A stretch of DNA of 64,000 nucleotides from Kroppenstedtia eburnea (GTDB lineage: Bacteria > Bacillota > Bacilli > Thermoactinomycetales > DSM-45169), in NCBI RefSeq assembly GCF_013282215.1, contig NZ_CP048103.1, positions 1,426,001 to 1,490,000 on the forward strand, in the 5' to 3' direction. The position numbers were made by a program, and so were the translations under genes. The notes beneath the pieces are model-generated. The model saw only the letters and a program-made list of their open reading frames with translations, was not told the DNA's origin and ran no database searches. Shown here one piece after another: positions 5,111 through 47,785 of the stretch; within the stretch, counting starts at the first letter, position 1; each line of letters begins with the position of its first letter.

Positions 5111-6655
5111 TCAGGAAAAGACAGGCTCTTTAAATTGTGCCAGCTTTTCCAGGGAATCCATTTCAATATCTTTGTGCAGACTGTTACCGTGGGCGTCCAT
5201 GGTGACAATGGCGGCGAAGTTTTTCACCCGCAGATGCCACATCGCCTCAGGTACGCCGAAGTTCATGAAGTGAACCCCCTCTACACCGGTGATGCAATCT
5301 GCATAGTATTGGGCGGCTCCCCCGATCGCATTCAGATAGACGGCGCCGTGCTCTTTCAGACCTTGCAGGGTGCGGGCGCCCATTCCGCCTTTACCGATTA
5401 CAGCCCGGATCCCGAATTTCTTGATGATGTCAGCCTGATAGGGCTCTTCCCGGATACTGGTGGTGGGACCGGCTGCTTTCACTTCCCAGCCCCCCTCCGG
5501 ATTTTTCAACATGACCGGACCGCAGTGGTAGATCACTCCGCCTGTGAGATCCACGGGAGCATCATGATCGATCAAATATTTATGCAGGGCGTCGCGACCG
5601 GTATGGATGATTCCGTCCAGGATAACCACATCTCCCACGCGCAAGGAACGAATATCCGCTTCTGAGATGGGAGGTGTCAGCCGCACTTCCCGGGAGGAAG
5701 TGGCAGTTTCCGGGGCGGCCGGCGGTTCAGCCGGTTCGGTGACGGTTTCAGCTTTCGGTTCATCCTTGTAAAGCCATCCGGTGATTTTCCCGCTGGTGGG
5801 ATCCAGGGTGATTCCCTGCCGTCGGAAGGCCCAACAATTGTAGGCGACGGAAACGTAAAAGCTGGCCGGGATCCGGTGCATACTGCCGATCTTGCACCCG
5901 AGAAGGGTGGTATTGCCGCCAAAGCCCATCGTTCCGATGCTCAGTTGGTTGGCCTTATCCAGGATGTAGTCTTCCAAGCGGGCCAGATCAGGATGGGGGT
6001 TGGTATCATCTGTTTTCCGGAACAACTGCTTTTTGGCCAACTCATAACCGGTGGTACGGTCACCGCCGATGCCCACTCCGATGAATCCGGCGCTGCATCC
6101 CTGCCCTTGAGCTTGGTAGACGCTGTGCAGGATGCACTTGCGAATCCCATCCAAGTCCCGACCGGCACGACCCAACCCCTCCAATTCACAGGGGAGACTG
6201 TATTGGATGTTTTTGTTTTCGCAACCGCCGCCTTTCAGAATCAGGCGAACTTCAATTTCATCTTTTTCCCACTGTTCATAGTGGATCACCGGAACCCCCT
6301 CGCCCAGGTTGTCGCCGCTGTTTTCTCCGGTGAGGGAGTCGACGGAATTGGGGCGGAGCTTCCCGGTCTTTGTCGCCTCCACGATCGCTTCCCGGATGGC
6401 CCGGGTCAGCTCCATCTGGTTGACGCCGACAGGAACACGGATGTAGAAGGTGGGCATCCCTGTATCCTGGCAGATCGGAGACACCTTATCCTCCGCCATC
6501 TGGATATTGTCGGTGATGGTGGTCAGGGCCAGTGCGGCCCGGGTACCGGCATCTTCTTTTTTCTTGGCCTTGGCAATGGCATGCCGTACATCCGGGGGCA
6601 GGTTGGTGGAGGTTTCCGTGATCAGTTGGAGAAGAGATTCTTTAAGTTCACGCAT
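5111..6655 (-). CDS. class I (iron-sulfur) fumarate hydratase
   Basis: 514 aa. It interconverts fumarate and malate in the TCA cycle using a [4Fe-4S] cluster. The N-terminal alpha domain (about 1-285) contains the candidate cluster cysteines in SPICQDTGMP, QGCSAGFIG and LLGCKIGS. The C-terminal beta domain (from about 340) contains GDVVILDGIIHTGRDA. The two parts, separate genes in some archaea and clostridia, are fused here through a P/A/E-rich linker (about 300-330). Bacillus subtilis instead uses the unrelated class II enzyme. Start choice: ATG at 6655 fits the family and has AAAGGAG 7 nt upstream. An in-frame ATG at 6754, also with a good site (GGAGGCAAGGGG), would add 33 residues. Confidence 0.93.
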   Translation of the reverse strand: MRELKESLLQLITETSTNLPPDVRHAIAKAKKKEDAGTRAALALTTITDNIQMAEDKVSPICQDTGMPTFYIRVPVGVNQMELTRAIREAIVEATKTGKLRPNSVDSLTGENSGDNLGEGVPVIHYEQWEKDEIEVRLILKGGGCENKNIQYSLPCELEGLGRAGRDLDGIRKCILHSVYQAQGQGCSAGFIGVGIGGDRTTGYELAKKQLFRKTDDTNPHPDLARLEDYILDKANQLSIGTMGFGGNTTLLGCKIGSMHRIPASFYVSVAYNCWAFRRQGITLDPTSGKITGWLYKDEPKAETVTEPAEPPAAPETATSSREVRLTPPISEADIRSLRVGDVVILDGIIHTGRDALHKYLIDHDAPVDLTGGVIYHCGPVMLKNPEGGWEVKAAGPTTSIREEPYQADIIKKFGIRAVIGKGGMGARTLQGLKEHGAVYLNAIGGAAQYYADCITGVEGVHFMNFGVPEAMWHLRVKNFAAIVTMDAHGNSLHKDIEMDSLEKLAQFKEPVFS

Positions 6656-15865: not shown

Positions 15866-16393
15866 GTGCGGGTTCTGATTGTCAGTGACAGCCATGGGGA
15901 AGGGGCGCTTCTGCGGGAAGTGGTGGACCGTGAACAAGCGGATCATGTGATTCACTGCGGTGACTTCTGCACCGAAAGTGCCCAGCTCCCGGGGGGCTGG
16001 ATCACGGTGGTCCGGGGGAATTGCGACTGGGTGGAAGTTCCTTGGGAAGCACGGTGGGAAGGCGGGGGCATCCACTTCTTGATCACCCACGGGCACCGAC
16101 TCCAGGTGAATTCTTCCCTCCTTCCCTTGCAGTACCGCGCGCAAGAGGTGGGTGCACAGATCGCCTGTTTCGGTCATACGCATATCCCTATGTCAGAGTG
16201 GGTGGATGGCGTGTTGTTGCTCAATCCCGGCAGCCTGGTGAATCCCCGGGGCGGATTTCCAAAGCCTTCTTATGCGATCTTGGAGACAACGGGGAGAGAG
16301 GATGTCACCCTCTCATACTTCACCCCGGATGGAGAGCGCCTCCCGGGATTGGGCGGAAAATTCCCCGTTTTTGCAAGGAGTAATCCCCCTTGA
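15866..16393 (+). CDS. YfcE/MJ0936-type metallophosphodiesterase (YsnB)
   Basis: 175 aa. Calcineurin-like phosphoesterase fold. The metal-binding motifs are visible: SDSHGE near the N-terminus, HCGDF, VRGNCDW, ITHGH, and FGHTHIP, followed by NPGSLVNPRGG. The GTG start at 15866 lies 7 nt after the rdgB stop. The physiological substrate is unknown in this family. It is the last gene before the tRNA, whose promoter overlaps its stop. Confidence 0.92.
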   Translation: MRVLIVSDSHGEGALLREVVDREQADHVIHCGDFCTESAQLPGGWITVVRGNCDWVEVPWEARWEGGGIHFLITHGHRLQVNSSLLPLQYRAQEVGAQIACFGHTHIPMSEWVDGVLLLNPGSLVNPRGGFPKPSYAILETTGREDVTLSYFTPDGERLPGLGGKFPVFARSNPP

Positions 16394-16417
16394 CGGTTTG
16401 GATTTCCATGGTATAAT
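16390..16417 (+). promoter_or_regulatory. sigma-A promoter of the tRNA-Arg gene
   Basis: TTGACG (16390-16395), 16-nt spacer, TATAAT (16412-16417), about 30 nt before the tRNA 5' end. Confidence 0.85.
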
Positions 16418-16447
16418 GAACTTCATGAGTTGTAACTCCTCCGCCGG

Positions 16448-16828
16448 GTCCCAGTAGCTCAGCTGGATAGAGCAACGGCCTTCAATTAGGAGCCTCTGCA
16501 GGAAAACAGAAACCTGCAGAGTGGACGGCACTGTATCGGTGAATCCTTAACAGGTCATGCTGATGGTAACACCGAGGAAACTTACGATCCCCGCACAGGG
16601 GATTCAGGAGTTTCAAAGGCTTGGGCCACTTTGCCCAAGGGTAGAGACTCCGAAGAATCATCCGATGCAAAGGGCATGGGATGATTGTGAGGATCCGTAG
16701 AGACTATACGTGCCGCACCTGAAATGGTGAAGATATAGTCCAGACCACAAACAATCATTCTTGGTGGCGAAAGCCATAGTGGTATGCTAAGCCGTCGGTC
16801 GGGGGTTCGAATCCCTCCTGGGATGCCA
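16448..16828 (+). tRNA. tRNA-Arg(UCU), interrupted by a group I intron
   Basis: The exons are 16448-16482 and 16787-16828; joined they give a 77-nt cloverleaf. Acceptor GTCCCAG pairs with CTGGGAT (one G-T). The D arm is GCTCAGCTGGATAGAGC, the anticodon stem ACGGC/GCCGT has loop CTTCTAA (anticodon TCT), and the T arm is GGGGGTTCGAATCCCTC. Discriminator G and CCA are encoded. The intron sits between anticodon bases U34 and C35. The gene has its own sigma-A promoter and lies between ysnB and tig. Confidence 0.93.
16483..16786 (+). ncRNA. group I self-splicing intron in the tRNA anticodon loop
   Basis: 304 nt, no internal gene. Pairings by eye: P1 between exon GG(C)CUU plus intron C and GGAGCC, giving a U34-G wobble at the 5' splice site; P10 between intron UUAG and 3' exon CUAA; P2 CTCTGCAGG/CCTGCAGAG (16494-16502/16513-16521); P3 CGGCAC (16526-16531) with GTGCCG (16710-16715); P7 GACTATA (16702-16708) with TATAGTC (16734-16740); P8 CACC/GGTG. 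The S element AAGATATAGTCC is a group I hallmark. The last intron base is G. Extra hairpins CTTGGGC/GCCCAAG and AATCATCC/GGATGATT decorate the P5/P6 side. Confidence 0.92.
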
Positions 16829-16919
16829 TATTCCTCGGGATCGGATGGAGTTACAACTTTGTCAGAAAAGAGGCCCCTGCCCGGGGTTTTTGTTTTGAAC
16901 GCCGGGTGGTGGGTCTCTC

Positions 16920-47494: not shown

Positions 47495-47785
47495 CCATCG
47501 GAGACCCCCGGAAGCCGGGGTCTTCGCCAAAGGATCGGCGATGACGGGGAGAGTAGGCGGTGGATCCTCTCCAGAGAGAAGGCCCCCGGCTGAAAGGTCT
47601 TCAGGTGCAAGCCGCTGAACGTCACCCCGGAGCCGTCCGCCTGAAGTGAAGTAGGGCGGTCCGTCCTCCCGCGTTAAGGGATTGAGTGTATCGACTCCGG
47701 ACGCTTGTCAGCGAAGGGAGTTCGGTGAATAAAGGTGGTACCGCGGAACCTTCCGTCCTTTGGGATGGAAGGTTTTATTTATTTT
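47495..47785 (+). promoter_or_regulatory. T-box leader (tRNA-Val sensing) of valS
   Basis: Classical T-box: AGTA loop-E element near 47552, a specifier GTC (Val codon) at 47621-47623 in the context GAACGTCACC, the T-box sequence AAAGGTGGTACCGCGG (47731-47746), and a terminator AACCTTCCGTCC / GGATGGAAGGTT with T run to about 47783. Uncharged tRNA-Val(GAC) should stabilise the antiterminator and switch on valS. Confidence 0.93.

Follow-up and report, generated by a model that had tools for sequence, protein, structure and literature searches.

A group I intron that splits the anticodon of tRNA-Arg(UCU) in Kroppenstedtia eburnea, and the intron family around it

Group I introns in bacterial tRNA genes are established. 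Small ones interrupt tRNA-Ile of Azoarcus and tRNA-Arg(CCU) of Agrobacterium, that is, tRNAs with other anticodons than the one considered here, and the intron of the endonuclease I-Ssp6803I lies in tRNA-fMet of Synechocystis. Closest to the present case, a putative group I intron in tRNA-Arg-TCT was reported from Thiomargarita nelsonii and Beggiatoa BOGUAY (PMC4853749, available text). The authors of tRNAscan-SE mention that tRNAs are missed through such introns (PMC8450103, available text). For a tRNA-Arg(UCU) of Bacillota, the open-access literature, which leaves out most subscription journals, yielded no description of such an intron; a first-pass annotation of the same DNA had named none in a Firmicute either.

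The DNA analysed here (the window) is a stretch of 64,000 nt from Kroppenstedtia eburnea (contig NZ_CP048103.1, positions 1,426,001 to 1,490,000); all positions below count from its first letter and all features lie on the forward strand.

The split tRNA gene and the fold of its insert

The 5' exon of tRNA-Arg(UCU) occupies positions 16448–16482, beginning with GTCCCAG and ending in ACGGCCTT with U34 as its last base, and the 3' exon runs from C35 to CCA (16787–16828, beginning with CTAAGCC and ending in TGCCA). Between them lies an insert of 304 nt with a terminal G (16483–16786), which sequence, alignment, covariation and homologues characterise as a group I intron. When joined, the exons are read by ARAGORN as a tRNA-Arg(tct) of 77 nt with cloverleaf and UCU anticodon, and the unspliced gene is miscalled by the same program as tRNA-Ser(gct). 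The DNA alignment alone leaves the junction ambiguous by one base (C16483/C16787); because P1 and the terminal G decide, it was placed between U34 and C35. The first-pass annotation had already given the coordinates, the length of the insert and the split correctly to the base, and the other elements it had named (P1 with U-G at the 5' splice site, P10 as UUAG/CUAA, P2, P3, P7, P8, the AAGATATAGTCC element and the final G) are all found in the sequence. The RNA fold is beyond chance (z = -5.67).

For the structural analysis, a 27-nt pattern drawn from the P8-P7-P9 stretch was searched in 84,980 species genomes and in viral contigs and was found at 60 and 8 loci, respectively. Together with the window this gave 69 introns, of which 56 were aligned; eight were left out as too long (L035, L037, L049, L066, L076, L095, L042, L078) and five since their 5' exon was unmapped (L044, L071, L090, L093, L097). 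A structure from P1 to P10 with 62 pairs was drawn by hand on the window sequence, and its pairs are formed in 94.3% of 3457 cells of the alignment. Double changes occur in 36 of the 62 pairs and in 216 cells, compared to 17.4 pairs and 41.3 cells in shuffles (none of 500 as high) and to 13–20 pairs and 32–57 cells when the partners were slid as a control, a comparison in which drawing on the window sequence favours the window structure and the rows are related to each other.

P1 pairs CUU (16480–16482) with GAG (16490–16492) and places U34.G at the splice site (16480–16492 in total); CUU and GAG are identical in 56 of 56 introns. The group I hallmarks are likewise constant, with the U-G at the 5' splice site in all 56 aligned introns and an invariant terminal G. 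The P10 guide UUAG (16486–16489) finds its partner CUAA in the 3' exon (16787–16790; 78.6% of cells paired), and the P2 hairpin (16494–16502 with 16513–16521) shows double changes in seven of nine pairs. The 5' strand of P3 (16526–16531) pairs with its 3' strand at 16710–16715, as drawn and as supported by covariation, which is strongest here. P4 (16536–16541 with 16570–16575) and P5 (16545–16546 with 16565–16566 and 16551–16553 with 16560–16562) carry double changes in 4/6 and, for P5/P5a, 4/5 pairs of the 56 aligned introns. P6/P6a (16576–16579 with 16693–16696; 16581–16588 with 16684–16691) is paired in 80.6% of cells with double changes in 9/12 pairs; the window copy has an A-A mismatch in P6 and extra hairpins in this region, at the place where relatives carry an endonuclease gene. 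The 5' strand of P7, GACUA (16702–16706), and its partner UAGUC (16736–16740) are invariant in 56/56 introns, as is P8 (16716–16719 with 16726–16729). The AAGATATAGTCC element at 16730–16741, identified by sequence and alignment, comprises J8/7 and the 3' strand of P7. P9 (16745–16748 with 16779–16782) encloses the P9a GAAA hairpin (16765–16776); all four pairs of P9a show double changes, and three of the four P9 pairs never vary. The window intron therewith has a P3-P7-P8 core with P4-P6 and a P3/P7 pseudoknot, found in the drawn structure and across the 56 rows. Covariation is uninformative on P1, P7 and P8, which are constant throughout (P7 and P8 being complementary), and on the nearly constant P9. 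Of the compensatory P3/P7 pattern that had been proposed as a check in relatives, the P3 part was borne out in 6/6 pairs, and P7, invariant in all 56 rows, speaks neither way.

The Rfam group I model alone is not decisive. Against RF00028 the window intron scores 22.1 bits (E 0.0018 in the 501 nt searched), below the gathering score of 50; no group I match reaches gathering level in the window and none E <= 0.001 in the whole genome, and in a search of ten loci (58.8 kb) the window copy is not listed at E <= 0.01. The cut-off is passed by two homologues, one in Aeromonas veronii (75.5 bits) and one in a viral contig (L098, 61 bits), and two others stay below it (L088, 39.4 bits; L060, 37.9 bits). 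The remaining six of the ten loci are without match at E <= 0.01 (the window copy, listed as L001, and L055, L096, L091, L079 and L036). The weak score may be due in part to the length of the P6 region, though some relatives with short P6 also fail. The suggested covariance-model check for group I had a divided outcome, with the window copy below and two homologues above the curated cut-off. The decisive route to group I identity is the family, that is, the pattern loci, the alignment, the covariation and the homologues' scores, and a group I intron in tRNA-Arg(UCU) remains the best reading of the locus, upheld by covariation and by the RF00028 scores of homologues.

TRNA introns of Archaea and eukaryotes are removed by proteins, and an archaeal-type endonuclease together with a ligase might in principle remove this insert in place of its own RNA. 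The insert lies, however, at 34/35, is 304 nt long and has a group I core with covariation, and its homologues match the group I model RF00028, so that such a route appears extremely improbable.

Upstream of the split gene, a consensus scan found a promoter-like site (TTGACG-16-TATAAT, 16390–16417, 11/12 matches); three such sites occur in a stretch of 611 nt, compared to 0.6 in shuffles. A perfect 12-nt inverted repeat, with its left arm AGTTGTAACTCC at 16428–16439 and its right arm GGAGTTACAACT at 16847–16858, would close the precursor; none of 200 shuffles contained one as long. Repeats of at least 10 nt, partly of other letters, also flank the tRNA in three loci with intron (L002, L008, L014) and in one without (L020), and none of this length was found in L003, L004 and L017, which belong to the same family. 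The repeat thus seems to be a stem of the precursor that does not depend on the intron. A scan of the split-tRNA stretch found no terminator. Elsewhere in the window, a T-box leader was noted at 47532–47763 (110.6 bits).

The intron family, its endonuclease and the reading of AGA

In a DNA search of 101 genomes, that of K. eburnea included, matches were obtained in all, mostly to the tRNA exons, and the insert together with both exons was present in 15. In 13 fetched loci without insert (L017–L027, L029 and L030) the two exons abut exactly; in L017 and L020 the empty site is bordered by the neighbours of the split gene, yfcE-like and tig, and the flank is too short to show tig in several others. 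The survey of relatives proposed in the first-pass annotation hence yielded both occupied and empty sites. Within the order Thermoactinomycetales, a 26-nt intron signature (up to two mismatches) was detected in 12 of 42 genomes, and in 29 of 398 genomes drawn from the class (11 of 146 genera), counted by signature alone. Carriers of the 27-nt pattern include Kroppenstedtia, Melghirimyces, Shimazuella, Exiguobacterium, Bacillus, Neobacillus, Priestia and Aeromonas, and also metagenome-assembled genomes (MAGs) labelled as Chloroflexi, Cytophagales, Bdellovibrio and Gammaproteobacteria. In a search of plasmids, at most 21% of the intron was matched, in two Tritonibacter records.

Both exons could be mapped in 63 of the 68 pattern loci: 60 belong to tRNA-Arg(UCU) and three (L055, L096, L098) to tRNA-Leu(UAA), split after U34. 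Among the five remaining loci, L071, L044 and L090 are truncated, the last two with the Arg 3' exon retained, and L093 and L097 were read in the intron mode of ARAGORN. This distribution bears on the idea that an IStron or another transposon has been inserted that happens to splice. Some group I ribozymes do ride on insertion sequences (PMC4227781, available text), but the same base of tRNA-Arg(UCU) is hit in 60/63 loci, the 304 nt hold no long open frame, and relatives carry a PF11645 endonuclease, which leaves a transposon origin next to no probability.

Nearest to the window intron in the intron tree is that of Kroppenstedtia guangzhouensis, with 93% identity over 271 columns; the tree, in which 25 of 53 forks are open and branches are long, was used solely for this purpose. 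Because the two introns are so similar, inheritance of the intron with its gene inside the genus Kroppenstedtia is likely on sequence grounds.

Two loci show further arrangements around the exons. In genome G076 (L119, 744–1117 and 12466–12528), the split tRNA-Arg is followed at a distance of about 11.3 kb by a second occurrence of the final 26 nt of the intron, with most of the 3' exon; by eye, the intervening stretch holds restriction-modification-like and resolvase-like genes, as if an integrating element had taken the intron tail and exon as its site. In genome G055 (L120, 914–975), an intronless tRNA-Arg(UCU) is accompanied, 4.8 kb further on, by an intron-like P9 tail fused to GGCCTT and the 3' exon. 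Between L120 and L119, the element ends are nearly identical.

In five relatives (L035, L037, L049, L078 and L076, the last from Priestia abyssalis), a PD-(D/E)XK endonuclease is encoded by a long open frame within the P6 region. The frame has an ATG in four of them, L037 being without ATG at the others' start, and it is broken in L066 and L095. All three endonucleases tested belong to PF11645 (E 2.9e-36 to 7.8e-38). A predicted structure whose confidence is modest (pLDDT 65.6, five sequences) had as its first structural match I-Ssp6803I (PDB 2OST; E 1.7e-8, TM 0.68, 21% identity). In Bacillota, the frames terminate at a UAG that at the same time belongs to CCGUAGAGACUA, ahead of P7. The window intron contains no intact PD-(D/E)XK endonuclease but broken ends alone, in two different frames. 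By tblastn of the relatives' endonucleases, a remnant of the N-terminus was located at 16598–16633 (GDSGVSKAW, compared to GDLGVLKAQ; E 0.08–0.7, not significant alone) and a remnant of the C-terminus at 16638–16700 (RVETPKNHPMQ...DP, stop TAG 16698–16700; E 2.2e-4 with one 304-nt subject). In RVETPKNHPMQ, nine of 11 residues are as in L037, and the remnant runs to the same UAG stop. Because some relatives keep a PF11645 endonuclease in P6 and the window keeps its broken ends, the window intron is best read as a deletion derivative of a mobile intron that would have lost its endonuclease.

The genome consists of one contig of 3.56 Mb, in which RF00005 yields 61 tRNAs. ARAGORN, run on these stretches, gave 61 genes, the Arg anticodons among them being CCT, ACG (twice) and CCG, and one of the 61 having an unreadable four-base anticodon; no TCT anticodon was found among the 61. 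A wide sequence pattern detected no intact tRNA-Arg(UCU) in the 15 intron carriers, other matches not being tRNAs by their sequence; at its single match in the genome of K. eburnea, ARAGORN sees no tRNA. All four empty-site genomes searched with it (G002, G005, G006 and G055) do have an intact tRNA-Arg(UCU), that of G055 lying at 5822–5893 of L120 with GAGTTC instead of GGTTC. In the window, AGA accounts for 50 of 15,020 codons and is used by 25 of 37 mechanically chosen, non-overlapping open reading frames of at least 200 codons. Since no intact tRNA-Arg(UCU) was found in a single-contig genome, AGA reading very likely depends on the predicted splicing of the precursor. Within the reach of these searches, the earlier statement that, barring a second copy, splicing would be needed is upheld.

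It could still be argued that the intron has decayed, leaving a tRNA pseudogene, and that the cell decodes AGA in some other way, such as with a tRNA that escaped detection; the broken endonuclease and the low Rfam score would fit. The exons, though, form an intact tRNA by ARAGORN, the window intron retains the core positions that do not vary among the other 55, no other TCT tRNA was found while AGA is in use in the frames counted above, and the congener's intron is closely alike. A decayed intron is accordingly considered very unlikely. We are confident, close to certainty, in the preferred reading, in which a mobile-type group I intron splits the one tRNA-Arg(UCU) gene detected at U34/C35, has lost its endonuclease and is now passed on with the gene.

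Phage and viral members

Parts of the family's sequence also recur in three phage records with tRNAs that appear split. ARAGORN reads a split tRNA-Leu(taa) in Agrobacterium phage Atu_ph07 (278 nt) and in an uncultured 735-kb phage (LR756501, 205 nt), and a split tRNA-Arg(cct) in the partial genome of Microcoleus phage My-WqHQDG (213 nt), where it was deposited as a 286-nt tRNA-Arg. The word 'intron' is absent from the available text of the Atu_ph07 paper (PMC6102473). In My-WqHQDG, an annotated PD-(D/E)XK nuclease gene (L122, 1–565) ends just before the split tRNA-Arg. Two viral contigs belong to the pattern loci. One (L097, match at about 922, minus strand) has a UCA tRNA, which would read UGA, with a 605-nt insert encoding a PF11645 endonuclease (E 9.8e-19) that lies, by eye, near the start of the insert rather than in P6. 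The other (L093, at about 766) has a tRNA-Leu(UAA) split by 720 nt, and the open frame inside this insert is HNH-like by eye and perhaps adds a second endonuclease type to the same ribozyme family. In a 181-kb viral contig (L121, 351–426 and 506–913), a free-standing relative of the intron endonuclease (54%) directly follows an intronless tRNA-Arg(CCU).

At E <= 0.01, RF00028 has no match in the five phage and viral loci with split tRNAs (L122, L123, L124, L093, L097), and the group I nature of the three phage introns and of those in L093 and L097 is suggested by family likeness. Three further candidates were set aside. The intron of L095 has the same length and ends as that of Pullulanibacillus pueri (L066) and perhaps lies in a chromosomal stretch within a predicted prophage. 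The matches in a crAss-like Kolpuevirus and in Pelagibacter phage HTVC120P adjoin a helicase gene and capsid genes, respectively, and look like cores outside a tRNA.

It is conceivable, though we rate it as somewhat doubtful, that a single intron lineage, guiding on CUU in tRNAs with U34, moves back and forth between phage tRNA genes and bacteria labelled as Bacillota, Chloroflexota, Pseudomonadota, Bacteroidota and Bdellovibrionota. Its driving force would be an endonuclease cleaving the anticodon loop, and phage tRNA arrays would be the vehicle. Our estimate was lowered a little because the five phage and viral examples are without RF00028 match. If true, such a lineage would split even a UGA-reading phage tRNA, and decoding of AGA, UUA or UGA could hang on RNA splicing. 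Phage introns known in 2014 were all in protein genes according to the available text of a review (PMC3984707), and the family would thus place group I-like introns in phage tRNA genes.

Proposed course and comparison with known systems

We infer transcription, splicing and homing as follows. The precursor would be transcribed from its own promoter, and the intron would fold into the P3-P7-P8/P4-P6 core. Its guide UUAG-GAG would bind the 5' exon through CUU, with U34.G, and subsequently the 3' exon through CUAA in P10; guanosine would attack after U34, and U34 would then attack after the terminal G, so that a 77-nt tRNA results and the 304-nt intron is set free. Its ancestor was presumably mobile, carrying in P6 a PD-(D/E)XK endonuclease that would cut the anticodon loops of intronless tRNAs. 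In the window, this gene would have been deleted except for both broken ends, and the copy would now be inherited with its gene.

AGA decoding in many Bacillus-like bacteria seems to be ribozyme-dependent, which common annotation misses, as ARAGORN calls tRNA-Ser(gct) and the Rfam score is below cut-off. Loci with the endonuclease, with a broken one, with a deleted one and with no intron at all make up a natural series on which homing, decay and loss become testable. Its breadth, the endonuclease cycle and the phage members are of interest. The first-pass annotation, right on the intron, had missed that the family is common, that the endonuclease is carried or lost, and the Thiomargarita/Beggiatoa report (PMC4853749, available text).

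Among described systems, the tRNA-Leu(UAA) intron cited in the available text of PMC3984707 is split after U34 as in L055, L096 and L098; it is likened by site alone, and its tRNA and host are other than those of the window. The relatives' endonuclease shares fold and PF11645 with I-Ssp6803I (sequence match E 0.077 alone), but its target would be the anticodon loop of tRNA-Arg(UCU), and in the window the gene is gone. In core and P9, the window intron gives us the impression of being alike the Azoarcus and Agrobacterium introns, and subgroup IC3 is our impression as well. The introns of Thiomargarita and Beggiatoa reside in the same two host tRNAs as the present family (PMC4853749, available text) and presumably belong to it; in three gammaproteobacterial MAGs found by the 27-nt pattern (L048, L073, L079), tRNA-Arg(UCU) is split at the same base as in the window. 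Those hosts are giant sulfur bacteria, and structure and type of their introns were left undetermined in the available text of that report, whereas the present family lies in Bacillota and comes with an endonuclease and its loss.
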